Below, piece by piece: positions 12,242-15,603 of a stretch of DNA of 22,858 nucleotides. The stretch comes from a virus: IMG/VR virus record IMGVR_UViG_3300030101_000232, positions 1 through 22,858 of that record; one strand, written 5' to 3'. Position 1 is the first letter of the stretch. Every line of letters begins with the position of its first letter. The position numbers and the translations under genes are program-made. The notes below the pieces were generated by a model. The model had not been told where the DNA came from, did no database searches, and saw only the letters and a program-made list of their open reading frames with translations.

Positions 12242-13159
12242 ATGCAAAACGTAATCACAAACCAAAATGTTAGTGACACACTAACAAATCACACTGCACC
12301 GAGCATCGGATCATCTGCCATGCTATGTGAGTTATCCATCTCAACATGGACAGGGCGCAAGAAAGATCGCAAAGCATCAGAAGATGTTACCGATGCAAAC
12401 TTTGCGGCATCCGGTGTTGCCTCTGTACACAAGAAGCTACTCGCTGATTGCCAAGAACTTGTTGCAGTACAGAAGTTCACAGCTAACAGCCGCAACATGC
12501 ACTACGCTATGACAATGCCGTGGTCTGACACGGGCTTGCGTCTTTTGCCAACGGCTCAATACTTCAAGTACCATCAAGCAATGACTGACATCCAGAATGA
12601 GTATGACAGGCTTGTTAACACGTTTCTACAAGGTTACGAATGGGAGATCACCCAAGCATCCGCAAAGCTAGGTGACTTGTTCAATCGTGACGAGTATCCA
12701 TCAATCGACAGCTTACGCAACAAGTTTGGGTTCCGCTTGTCGTATATTCCACTGCCTGACGCTGGTGATTTTCGTATCGACATTGGCAATGAAGCAACGG
12801 AACAAGTCAAGGATCACTACCAATCCTACTACTCGACACAGCTAAACAACGCAATGAATGACGTGTGGCAACGCACCCACAAGGCGTTATCTGCTATGTC
12901 CGAGCGACTCGACTACACACCATCCGAGGACAAGAAAGTGTTTCGTGACACGCTCGTCACCAACGTCCTCGACATGGTAGAACTTCTTAACGTGTGTAAC
13001 GTATCGGGCGACAGCCAGATGAACGCGGCACGTATGAAACTTGAGGACGCACTACGCGGTGTCAATGCTGATGCACTGCGCGAGGATGCTCACCTGCGGT
13101 CAGAGACTAAGCGTACCGTGGATGAGGTCATCAAATCACTACCATCAATCGGCATGTAA
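12242..13159 (+). CDS. DUF3150-like protein, 305 aa
   Basis: The ATG at 12242 is preceded by GAAAGGA with good spacing; an upstream in-frame start at 12203 lacks a site. The protein has an ELSISTWTGRKKDRKASEDV segment near residues 37-56, like the 'SIWSGRKK' opening of DUF3150 proteins. A helical body follows with PWSDTGLRLLPTAQYFKY and LPDAGDFRIDIGNEA, and a C-terminal ASM-SERL-type helix series. DUF3150 genes in other elements sit beside CobS-like ATPase and CobT/VWA-like genes, and exactly those two follow here; that association and the family call are from memory. A 19-bp palindrome inside the gene encodes residues 9-15 (NVSDTLT). The function is unknown; probably a partner of the ATPase-VWA pair. 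Confidence 0.75.
   Translation: MQNVITNQNVSDTLTNHTAPSIGSSAMLCELSISTWTGRKKDRKASEDVTDANFAASGVASVHKKLLADCQELVAVQKFTANSRNMHYAMTMPWSDTGLRLLPTAQYFKYHQAMTDIQNEYDRLVNTFLQGYEWEITQASAKLGDLFNRDEYPSIDSLRNKFGFRLSYIPLPDAGDFRIDIGNEATEQVKDHYQSYYSTQLNNAMNDVWQRTHKALSAMSERLDYTPSEDKKVFRDTLVTNVLDMVELLNVCNVSGDSQMNAARMKLEDALRGVNADALREDAHLRSETKRTVDEVIKSLPSIGM
12268..12286 (+). repeat. 19-bp palindrome, copy 4 (coding)
   Basis: TGTTAGTGACACACTAACA, 26 bp after the start codon of the DUF3150-like gene, read in frame as VSDTLT. Confidence 0.9.
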
Positions 13160-13161
13160 CT

Positions 13162-13180
13162 TGTTAGTGACACACTAACA
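13162..13180 (+). repeat. 19-bp palindrome, copy 5
   Basis: TGTTAGTGACACACTAACA, in the 46-bp gap between the DUF3150-like and AAA+ genes. Confidence 0.9.
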
Positions 13181-13205
13181 CAACCTAGAAAGAATGGAGA
13201 CTATT

Positions 13206-14300
13206 ATGAACACAGCAACAGCAATGTATGCACTAGGTCTTGACCAAGTAGCCAATGCTATTCTCAAGACAGGACACAAACGCACCATGCTCATCCAAGG
13301 TGACATGGGTACTGGCAAGTCATCATTACTACCTGTGATCGGCAAAGAGAAGCCCGACCACATCTTGTGCTACTTCGATTGCACGACCAAGGACTTGGGT
13401 GACATCACCATACCCAACATTGCCAAGATGGATGATGGCACAGGCTATGTGACGTATCTCACCAATGAAGAGTTGGGCGCACACAACCACACGCCTGTCG
13501 TTCTGATGATTGACGAGTTCGGCAAGTCCAACCCAGCAGTCAAGAACGCACTGTTACGTCTTATACTGGAGCGCAAGATCGGTAGCTACACACTGCACCC
13601 TGACAGCATTATCTTTGCCACGACTAACAAAGGCTCTGAGGGTGTTGGTGACTTGCTACCACCGCATGCACGTAACCGCATGACTGTAGTACAGACACGC
13701 AAACCCACTAACATGGAATGGATTGAATGGGGGATTAACAATGACATCGACCACACGCTACTTGGGTGGGCAAAAGACAACCCGCAAATTTTCTACTCGT
13801 TTGAGGACATCAAAGACCCAGACGACAATCCATACATCTTCCATCCCAAGCAAAACAGAGCCGCGTTTGTTACACCACGCTCGTTGGAAGCGGCAAGCGA
13901 CATACTCAAAGTACGGGATGGACTAGATGACCAGACCACAACAGCTATGCTCATGGGTACTATCGGTGAGCGTGGTGCGATGGACTTGATGGCGTTTGTC
14001 AAGCTGGCTGACCAGCTACCGAGTGCCGAGTCTATCAAACAGGAACCCAAGACTGCCAAGATACCGACCAGTGCCGCAGGTGTATGCATGATTGTGTATC
14101 GCACCCTAGCATCTTTGGAGAGAGACTGGATTGATCCATGGATGGACTATCTTGTTCGTCTCGACAAAGAAGCACAGGGTATGTTTGCCAATGGCGTACG
14201 CGCACCCAAGTATGCCAAGCAGTCACTTGTTATGACAAACAAGAAGTTCACTCAGTGGGCCATGGACAACAACTATATGTTCGCGGCTGACAAGAAATAG
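13206..14300 (+). CDS. MoxR-type AAA+ ATPase, 364 aa
   Basis: Visible motifs are Walker A GDMGTGKS (about 32-39), Walker B VVLMIDEFG (about 98-106), sensor 1 ATTNKGSEG (about 138-146), and an arginine-containing HARNRM (about 154-159) in the arginine-finger region. The short lead before Walker A and the DEFGKS Walker B tail are typical of the MoxR/CobS group. These ATPases form hexameric rings that remodel protein complexes, usually with a VWA-domain partner, which is the next gene. ATG 13206 is preferred because GGAGA lies 5 nt upstream; ATG 13194 is the alternative. A 19-bp palindrome lies 26 bp upstream. What the pair acts on in a phage is not known. Confidence 0.9.
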   Translation: MNTATAMYALGLDQVANAILKTGHKRTMLIQGDMGTGKSSLLPVIGKEKPDHILCYFDCTTKDLGDITIPNIAKMDDGTGYVTYLTNEELGAHNHTPVVLMIDEFGKSNPAVKNALLRLILERKIGSYTLHPDSIIFATTNKGSEGVGDLLPPHARNRMTVVQTRKPTNMEWIEWGINNDIDHTLLGWAKDNPQIFYSFEDIKDPDDNPYIFHPKQNRAAFVTPRSLEAASDILKVRDGLDDQTTTAMLMGTIGERGAMDLMAFVKLADQLPSAESIKQEPKTAKIPTSAAGVCMIVYRTLASLERDWIDPWMDYLVRLDKEAQGMFANGVRAPKYAKQSLVMTNKKFTQWAMDNNYMFAADKK

Positions 14301-14317
14301 TTAGTGACTCACTAACA
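14299..14317 (+). repeat. 19-bp palindrome, copy 6
   Basis: AGTTAGTGACTCACTAACA: one change from consensus at the first base, where it overlaps the TAG stop of the AAA+ gene. It lies 45 bp before the VWA gene. Confidence 0.9.
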
Positions 14318-14361
14318 TCTTATGGGGTGGGGCATGTGCCTCACCCAGAAAGGACAGACCA

Positions 14362-15603
14362 ATGCTTGCTATTGGAAAAGAACTGACTACCGAGCAACGG
14401 CTCAACAAATGTGTCATCGACATCATGGGCAACCCCAAGTATGTCGCACTCGCTGGCATACTGATGATCGGTGAGAAGCGTATCTGCGACAAGACACAGA
14501 CAGCGTATACCAACGGACGTGACGAGGTGTATGGGCGTGGGTTCGCGGATCAGTGCAACGATCCAGAGTTTCGCTATCTCATACTGCATGAGAACTATCA
14601 CAAGCTGTATCAACATCTCAAGACTTGGAAGCACCTATGGGATGAGAACCCCCAGCTTGCTAACATGGCGATGGACTTCGTTATCAACCTCAAAATTTCT
14701 GATGACAACAAGGACGGCTTCGCAACCATGACAGGCCCACTCACAGTAGGTTGTTATGACGAGAAGTATCGTGGCATGGACACAGCCCAAGTATTCAATC
14801 TGCTCAAGCAAGAGTCAACGCAAGGCAACGGTCAGGGTAATGGTTCTAGTGCCGGGGACGGTAGCGGTAATGATACGCAGGGTAACGCGTCATCACAAGG
14901 CTTCGATGAGCATGACTTCGAGGGCGCACAAGAACTATCTCCAGCCGAGCAACAGGAGCTAGCGCGAGACATTGACGAGGCAGTTCGTCAGGGTGCGTTG
15001 ATTGCTGGCAAGATGGGGTCGGGTGGTGACCGTGACTTGCAGGACTTGCTCCAACCACAAGTCGATTGGCGTGAGGTCATGCGTGACTTCATCACCACCA
15101 CATGCACAGGCAATGACTACTCAACATGGAAGCGACCCAACAGGCGTTACATTGGCATGGGTCACTATCTGCCGAGTGGTATCTCTGAGCGTGTTGACGA
15201 GTTGGTGATTGCCACTGACATGTCAGGGTCTATCGGTGACAGGGAAGTTAGTGTTGCACTAACAGAAATCAAGTCAATCGCTGACACCATACACCCAGAA
15301 GCAGTACGCCTACTGTATTGGGATACACAAGTATGTCAGGACGAGAAGTATGACATGCACGAACTCGATACGATGGTGACATCAACCAGACCCAAGGGTG
15401 GCGGTGGCACGTCTGTCGAGTGTGTGCCAGCGTACATGACCGACAAGAACATCACACCACAAGCTGTTATCGTGATTACCGATGGCTACCTTGGCGGATC
15501 GTGGGGTCAGTGGTCATGTCCAGTGTTGTGGGTTGTCATCGACCACAAGACCGCCAAGCCCGACTGTGGCATTACAGTCCACGTAAAATCAGGAGATATG
15601 TAA
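14362..15603 (+). CDS. Zinc metallopeptidase-VWA protein (DUF2201-like), 413 aa
   Basis: Residues about 1-130 look like a putative metallopeptidase domain, with HENYH (76-80, HExxH) in LILHENYHKLYQH and a third-ligand region NMAMDFVINLKISDD (about 101-115). A Gly/Ser/Asn-rich linker (about 152-182) and an acidic stretch follow. A C-terminal VWA domain carries the MIDAS motif DMSGS (286-290), a GGGGTS (347-351) threonine and the ITDG aspartate (374). This two-domain build matches the DUF2201 type. It follows the MoxR-type ATPase, its expected motor partner. AGAAAGGA precedes ATG 14362. A palindrome copy lies within the VWA coding sequence. The protease activity is predicted from the motif only; the substrate is unknown. 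Confidence 0.88.
   Translation: MLAIGKELTTEQRLNKCVIDIMGNPKYVALAGILMIGEKRICDKTQTAYTNGRDEVYGRGFADQCNDPEFRYLILHENYHKLYQHLKTWKHLWDENPQLANMAMDFVINLKISDDNKDGFATMTGPLTVGCYDEKYRGMDTAQVFNLLKQESTQGNGQGNGSSAGDGSGNDTQGNASSQGFDEHDFEGAQELSPAEQQELARDIDEAVRQGALIAGKMGSGGDRDLQDLLQPQVDWREVMRDFITTTCTGNDYSTWKRPNRRYIGMGHYLPSGISERVDELVIATDMSGSIGDREVSVALTEIKSIADTIHPEAVRLLYWDTQVCQDEKYDMHELDTMVTSTRPKGGGGTSVECVPAYMTDKNITPQAVIVITDGYLGGSWGQWSCPVLWVVIDHKTAKPDCGITVHVKSGDM
15246..15264 (+). repeat. 19-bp palindrome, copy 7 (coding, degenerate centre)
   Basis: AGTTAGTGTTGCACTAACA keeps both inner 7-bp arms but has TTG as centre. It lies inside the VWA domain and is read as VSVALT. Confidence 0.75.

Follow-up and report, generated by a model that had tools for sequence, protein, structure and literature searches.

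What task do three adjacent genes, encoding a DUF3150 protein, an AAA+ ATPase and a metallopeptidase fused to a VWA domain, perform for the phage that carries them? The genes lie at positions 12242-15603 of IMG/VR record IMGVR_UViG_3300030101_000232, a 22,858-bp record of an uncultivated virus, called a marine phage, which was analyzed at its full length and is referred to here as the window. A preliminary description of this DNA had recognized the three domains and suggested a machine, made early in infection, that acts on a host complex or a defense. The ATPase and VWA genes are homologous to gp24 and gp25 of phage N4, listed among the core proteins of N4-like phages (PMC7650795); an entire phage family has this pair in its core, hence the interest of the trio, and we found no assigned function for them. 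Here we show that the three genes form one conserved module in viruses and also occur together on plasmids, and we propose, tentatively, that their products constitute a single ATP-driven remodeler-protease of the midasin/MoxR type acting on a conserved intracellular complex.

Domains and motifs of the three proteins

Gene 1 (12242-13159, + strand, 305 aa) matches Pfam DUF3150 above the gathering cutoff (E=1.4e-6), which confirms that a DUF3150-like gene comes first in the module. Its predicted structure (predicted local distance difference test, pLDDT, 80; predicted template modeling score, pTM, 0.50) is long-helical, with residues 1-17 disordered, and no relative of the fold was found in the PDB, so that the structure gives no functional clue. 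The invariant residues, which include D42, K64, R84, Y132, P153, P170, P172 and R286, form no obvious catalytic set. Because the protein is long-helical and shows no such set, we infer that DUF3150 could be an adaptor by which the substrate is recruited or regulated.

Gene 2 (13206-14300, + strand, 364 aa) encodes a MoxR/midasin-like AAA+ ATPase, for which an alignment of starts makes 13206 a more likely initiation position than 13194. The protein matches PHROG 1297 ('ATPase') at 5e-49 over residues 14-359, with Pfam AAA and AAA_5 matches below threshold; AAA_5 is matched by 21 of 25 relatives and AAA_3 by seven of them, the window protein matching neither above the curated cutoff. Walker A (G32, G35, G37, K38), Walker B (D103, E104), N141 and R158 are invariant in the 25 relatives, in agreement with the intact Walker and sensor residues noted at the outset, and the Walker A pattern GxxGxGK[ST] is present in 70 of 73 distinct ATPase proteins. 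In a profile search, the closest PDB relative was midasin (4e-13).

Gene 3 (14362-15603, + strand, 413 aa) joins a putative metallopeptidase domain (DUF2201_N, 8e-23) to a VWA-like domain (DUF2201, 3e-13), and its match to PHROG 1314 covers residues 10-410. The metal-binding motif HENYH (H76-H80; 14587-14601, + strand) and the metal-ion-dependent adhesion site (MIDAS) motif DMSGS (D286-S290; 15217-15231, + strand) are indeed combined in this one protein, as first described. Both are invariant in an alignment of 14 very distant homologs, with identity down to 23% and with N4 gp25, PA5oct and plasmid copies included: H76, E77 and H80 together with H85, N101, A103, D105 and N109, and the MIDAS residues D286, S288, S290, T350 and D374. 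Of 74 distinct proteins encoded by gene 3 and its homologs, 71 retain HExxHxxxxH. This invariance across distant homologs rules out a chance motif; the zincin-type motif is kept by selection.

In a Foldseek search, the nearest match of the VWA domain was the midasin MIDAS domain (MDN1-MIDAS at the top, 5e-4). The N-terminal domain resembles selecase (MJ1213), a minimal metallopeptidase (probability 0.99, TMt 0.55), a similarity that is marginal by sequence (E=0.016). Since gene 3 was modeled with moderate confidence (pLDDT 70.6), these fold matches are supportive and not conclusive. The N-terminal domain would be zinc-protease-like, with proteolysis as its predicted activity. It is worth noting that N4 gp25 (L108:2165-3307) and PHROG 1314 are called 'HNH endonuclease' in PHROGs and RefSeq, a label copied to many phage records. 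Judged by domain content, this label is wrong for the gp25 homologs: the domains of PHROG 1314 are DUF2201_N and DUF2201, with no HNH match.

Midasin (Rea1), an AAA ring bearing a MIDAS domain, removes assembly factors from pre-ribosomes. Among solved structures it is closest to the ATPase by sequence and to the VWA domain by fold, and the kinship is proposed because both halves of the pair point there. Unlike midasin, the window system consists of separate polypeptides and has an added protease-like domain; the link to ribosomes is known for midasin.

Conservation of the module in viruses

Homologs of gene 3 occur in 606 phage records, with identity never exceeding 60%, those of gene 2 in 501 and those of DUF3150 in three, all of which are Planktothrix/Synechococcus phages with 65,014-bp genomes. 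Closer relatives were found among uncultivated viral contigs (55 via gene 3 and 48 via gene 1). In 100 viral loci recruited with gene 1 or gene 3, the full trio is present in 75, and the remaining 25 are cut by a contig end inside the module. The order DUF3150-ATPase-VWA prevails (70 loci), ATPase-VWA-DUF3150 occurs in five, and Planktothrix phage Pag-Yong1 has ATPase-DUF3150-VWA; because the trio stays together through these changed orders, the linkage outlives rearrangement.

Using module genes as bait biases such a count, and a second recruitment was therefore made with the terminase. The trio is complete in all eight terminase-recruited loci that extend for 7.4 kb or more on the module side; shorter loci are cut off, one of them (L182) being uninformative. 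Of twelve contigs examined over their full length, seven carry genes 1 and 3 together, and the five lacking them stop no more than about 2 kb past the terminase on that side. Neither recruitment gave a counter-example, which rules out chance neighbors. The MoxR/midasin-like AAA+ protein and its VWA partner thus belong to one conserved module, and the three genes are conserved together in related phages wherever the contig is long enough.

The nearest isolates by terminase are Pelagibacter phages HTVC027P and HTVC023P, phage DSL-LC04 and Pag-Yong1. In the first three, tblastn detected no DUF3150, so that the module is not universal beyond this phage group. A hidden DUF3150 was sought in stretches of N4, PA5oct, pSYSA, HTVC027P and DSL-LC04, and none was found; a search of six metagenome-assembled genomes (MAGs) with the Pfam DUF3150 model gave no loci beyond those already found.

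DUF3150 has a ratio of nonsynonymous to synonymous substitution rates (dN/dS) of 0.05-0.10 against close relatives, the ATPase one of 0.06-0.12 and gene 3 one of 0.11-0.135; the distances of the three genes track those of terL and polA (r=0.90-0.97). The low dN/dS and this congruence indicate a core, vertically inherited function. In three loci (L158, L161 and L195), DUF3150 is just 27-29% identical to that of the window and the ATPase 49-70%, which could possibly mean that the third subunit was exchanged or diverged fast.

The trio on plasmids

Searching plasmids by tblastn revealed DUF3150 in 42 records and gene 3 in 71. The order ATPase-DUF3150-VWA is found in pBVIE02, Rhodovastum RHOApc, Cupriavidus pENH92, Robbsia p3 and PPGU19_p3, whereas a Simplicispira plasmid carries DUF3150-VWA with the ATPase a few genes further upstream. 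A PRTRC cassette (ParB- and ThiF-related genes) precedes the trio in pENH92, Robbsia p3 and PPGU19_p3; type IV secretion genes follow it in Robbsia p3, PPGU19_p3 and pBVIE02. No virion genes are annotated in the trio-bearing plasmid stretches. The ATPase/VWA pair is also present on the cyanobacterial plasmid pSYSA. The trio probably serves mobile genetic elements in general.

The trio adjoins the PRTRC cassette at the Burkholderiales plasmid loci L118, L119 and L120 (and L105), and gene order makes it possible that the two form a joint system. The plasmid ATPases of L105, L118 and L119 have a Walker B motif that ends in DD, not DE.

Relation to known systems

The ATPase/VWA pair is already known. 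N4 gp24 (an AAA+ ATPase) and gp25 (Schitoviridae; PHROG 1297 and 1314) belong to the same two families, are adjacent and carry the same motifs as the window pair; N4 differs in having no recognizable DUF3150 in the searched stretch, and the window phage in having a terminase of the HTVC027P/Pag-Yong1 type. The N4 homologs of the pair are middle genes (PMC4193335). Group 2.2 jumbo phages have a MoxR and metallopeptidase-vWA pair with the same domain fusion and pairing, proposed to be a chaperone-peptidase for virion assembly, and the part of that account considered here contains neither a DUF3150 third component nor the ~60 kb phage group, core status or plasmid copies (PMC7824862). The archaeal virus ATV likewise encodes a MoxR-VWA pair, p618/p892, whose members were shown to interact and function in tail development (PMC4124505); unlike the window pair, it acts in extracellular tail growth and, according to PMC7824862, lacks a metallopeptidase domain.

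In MoxR-VWA pairs, the VWA protein is proposed to grip a substrate peptide, which the ring releases in an altered state, and such chaperones occur in prokaryotic conflict systems as ternary systems with VMAP or iSTAND (PMC7159879). The three-gene logic is shared with the present module, as is, in most of our loci, the order third gene-MoxR-vWA. Here, however, the third gene is DUF3150 and not VMAP or iSTAND, no variable effector domain was found, and evolution is slow (dN/dS 0.05-0.135). Among the open-access papers searched, none names DUF3150; its steady presence as third member, the occurrence of the trio on plasmids and its core status in these phages appear, within that scope, to be new.

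Proposed mechanism and alternatives

We propose a model in which the AAA+ protein would form a MoxR/midasin-type ring, on which the VWA-metallopeptidase protein would dock via its MIDAS, while DUF3150 would select, position or regulate the substrate. Each ATP cycle would then pull on the captured protein and dismantle the complex and, in most versions of the machine, cut it, the ring delivering the substrate to the machine's own protease. The target would be a conserved complex that incoming DNA encounters, either a host complex or a nucleoprotein complex; since the trio is core in phages and also resides on conjugative-type plasmids, such a target is likelier than a virion protein or a single defense system. 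The mechanism class appears fairly secure, and the assignment as a whole is tentative.

Several observations weigh against this model. N4 and PA5oct have the ATPase/VWA pair with no recognizable DUF3150 in the searched stretches, and the PA5oct ATPase is annotated 'ESI-MS/MS' (electrospray ionization tandem mass spectrometry), which could mean virion association. HExxH is lost, with VWA and MIDAS kept, in a plasmid copy (L120:10911-12233), a MAG copy (L115:8922-10490) and a phage copy reading HEVYD (L027:3421-4683); these are possibly natural protease-dead versions, or, in the phage, a sequencing error. Because a few copies have lost the motif, proteolysis may be dispensable, and remodeling rather than cutting may be the constant activity. 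The far greater divergence of DUF3150 than of its partners in L158, L161 and L195 fits an adaptor, but it also fits a loosely attached gene. Lastly, the plasmid context was read in detail at six loci only.

The alternative that survives best, although we consider it unlikely, is that the pair is a virion assembly chaperone that folds or assembles head or tail parts, with the metallopeptidase as a maturation protease trimming structural proteins. It is the role proposed in print for the identical domain fusion of the jumbo phages (PMC7824862), and it accords with the tail function of the ATV pair (PMC4124505), the PA5oct annotation and the core, vertically inherited status of the trio. We do not adopt it mainly because the trio occurs on conjugative-type plasmids, which make no virions; the pair on pSYSA, the middle rather than late class of the N4 homologs, and the position of the trio in the DNA polymerase arm, on the strand opposite to portal, terminase and capsid, also speak against it. 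Some phages could use the pair for virion assembly in addition.

A somewhat smaller chance is given to a remodeler of the element's own replication or transfer complex, such as the replisome, partition complex or relaxosome, by analogy with ring-driven nucleoprotein disassembly. The phage trio shares its arm with DNA polymerase A and a resolvase-like gene, the N4 pair stands in a gene block before helicase and polymerase, and the plasmid trio adjoins ParB-related PRTRC genes as well as type IV secretion, TraI and TraD genes. This evidence is one of gene neighborhood, however, and no replication or transfer protein common to phages and plasmids was identified.

Less probable again is the counter-defense machine suggested in the preliminary description, a phage remodeler-protease that dismantles a host defense complex. 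Phages and conjugative-type plasmids both carry the trio and both must escape host defense, and MoxR-vWA chaperones do occur in conflict systems (PMC7159879). Against this, the trio is core and vertical, its distances being congruent with those of backbone genes, and it is never absent where this is testable; low dN/dS speaks against a fast arms race, although a conserved immune target would still be compatible with it. The search with PADLOC gave no significant match (best E 0.008, partial matches only). A neighbor annotated as the anti-CRISPR AcrVA2 in Pag-Yong1 could not be confirmed, having no Pfam or NCBIfam match and no similarity to orf326 of the window. The suggestion is thus left unsupported.

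The pairing of AAA+ and VWA proteins is common to chelatases, but it is highly improbable that the trio works in the manner of CobS/CobT or BchI/BchD and loads a metal into an enzyme or cofactor, as no large subunit, CobN-like or other, and no CobT/BchD match was found among the scanned window genes, in line with the original observation, and the fused domain is metallopeptidase-like.

That conjugative-type plasmids carry this machine too, complete with its fixed third subunit, limits the search for its role to a need that phages and plasmids may share, and plasmids offer systems in which the machine can be tested.

Promoter, palindrome array and neighboring genes

Portal, terminase and capsid genes of the window run leftward, and the trio lies in the rightward arm, where it is followed on its 3' side by genes without assigned function and then by the resolvase-like gene and DNA polymerase A. 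The perfect-consensus promoter reported upstream of the trio is borne out by the sequence: a predicted sigma70 promoter at 12157-12185 (+ strand) reads exactly TTGACA-17-TATAAT with an extended -10 TG, and is the sole 12/12 consensus match in 13.5 kb. Some close relatives share it, near -85 relative to gene 1, and only some keep the perfect form. All tested sequence details of the initial account of the trio were correct. Judged from this promoter, it is plausible that the trio is made early in infection, and co-transcription of all three genes from it may be supposed. Directly 3' of the promoter, at the expected transcript start, an inverted repeat AACAGTCA-n5-TGACTGTT (12191-12211) could be a possible second operator.

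The rightward arm further contains nine exact copies of a 17-bp palindrome, GTTAGTGnnnCACTAAC, within 10600-18376 (starts at 10600, 11705, 11960, 12269, 13163, 14300, 15247, 16046 and 18360), where 0.08 would be expected even with two mismatches; the structural arm has none. Two exact copies lie upstream of the module (11705-11721) and of its promoter (11960-11976). Each of the two intergenic gaps has one copy, at 13163-13179 between genes 1 and 2 and at 14300-14316 between genes 2 and 3, both with corresponding sites in other clades. One copy each lies in the 5' part of gene 1 (12269-12285, GTTAGTG-ACA-CACTAAC) and inside gene 3 (15247-15263, core TTG). In the 62-kb relatives G001 and G002, exact copies are likewise restricted to about 12 kb. 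Other clades have other palindromes in corresponding places (TTTACGGAATTCCGTAAA, GTTAGGGAnnTCCCTAAC, GTTAGTCCnnGGACTAAC, GTAGGGGTnACCCCTAC, GTAGTGAnTCACTAC and more), and six loci tested have 8-11 copies against at most one in shuffles.

In many loci, one copy falls near DUF3150 codons 6-10, and the encoded peptide varies with the palindrome type (NVSDTLTN, ETLRNSVN, DVSPRTNN, NGSDSLQ) within the segment, residues 1-17, that is disordered in the model. It is the DNA element and not the encoded peptide that is kept in DUF3150, and the palindromes appear to be replaced in concert between clades, even inside the coding sequence. Most likely, the array is an operator with many sites, read by a trans-acting regulator of switching specificity; RNA hairpins with 7-bp stems and 3-4-nt loops are a possible alternative. 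The array loosely resembles the stoperators of cluster A mycobacteriophages, with many copies along the early region and sites that differ between phages (PMC9283540), but stoperators are asymmetric sites read by the immunity repressor of a temperate phage, whereas the window sites are palindromic and no repressor was identified. A search of five relatives, including some partial records, gave no phage integrase (PF00589). Such arrays may represent an undescribed system of gene control, in the early arm, in aquatic phages.

The first gene of the rightward arm, orf189 (10733-11302, + strand, 189 aa), starts about 120 bp after the first palindrome and has no known domain. Fast-evolving homologs of the same family occupy this position in most clades and with most palindrome types, and no DNA-binding domain was recognized in orf189; by position and distribution, it is a candidate for the palindrome regulator. 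Returning to the proposed remodeler-protease, a more specific version of it, which we regard as rather doubtful, would make it a general ternary remodeling protease of phages and conjugative plasmids that disassembles one conserved host complex during DNA establishment, controlled in these phages by a regulator that reads the concertedly switched palindrome array, the switch rewriting the N-terminal tail of DUF3150.

Two other genes of the window are of note. The gene at 19919-20506 (+ strand), just 5' of the DNA polymerase, matches DUF6378 (4.5e-22) and, weakly, a winged-helix domain. In the structural arm, 4872-5255 (- strand) encodes a GroES-like co-chaperonin (Cpn10, 5e-7), which is also annotated in Pag-Yong1 and DSL-LC04.

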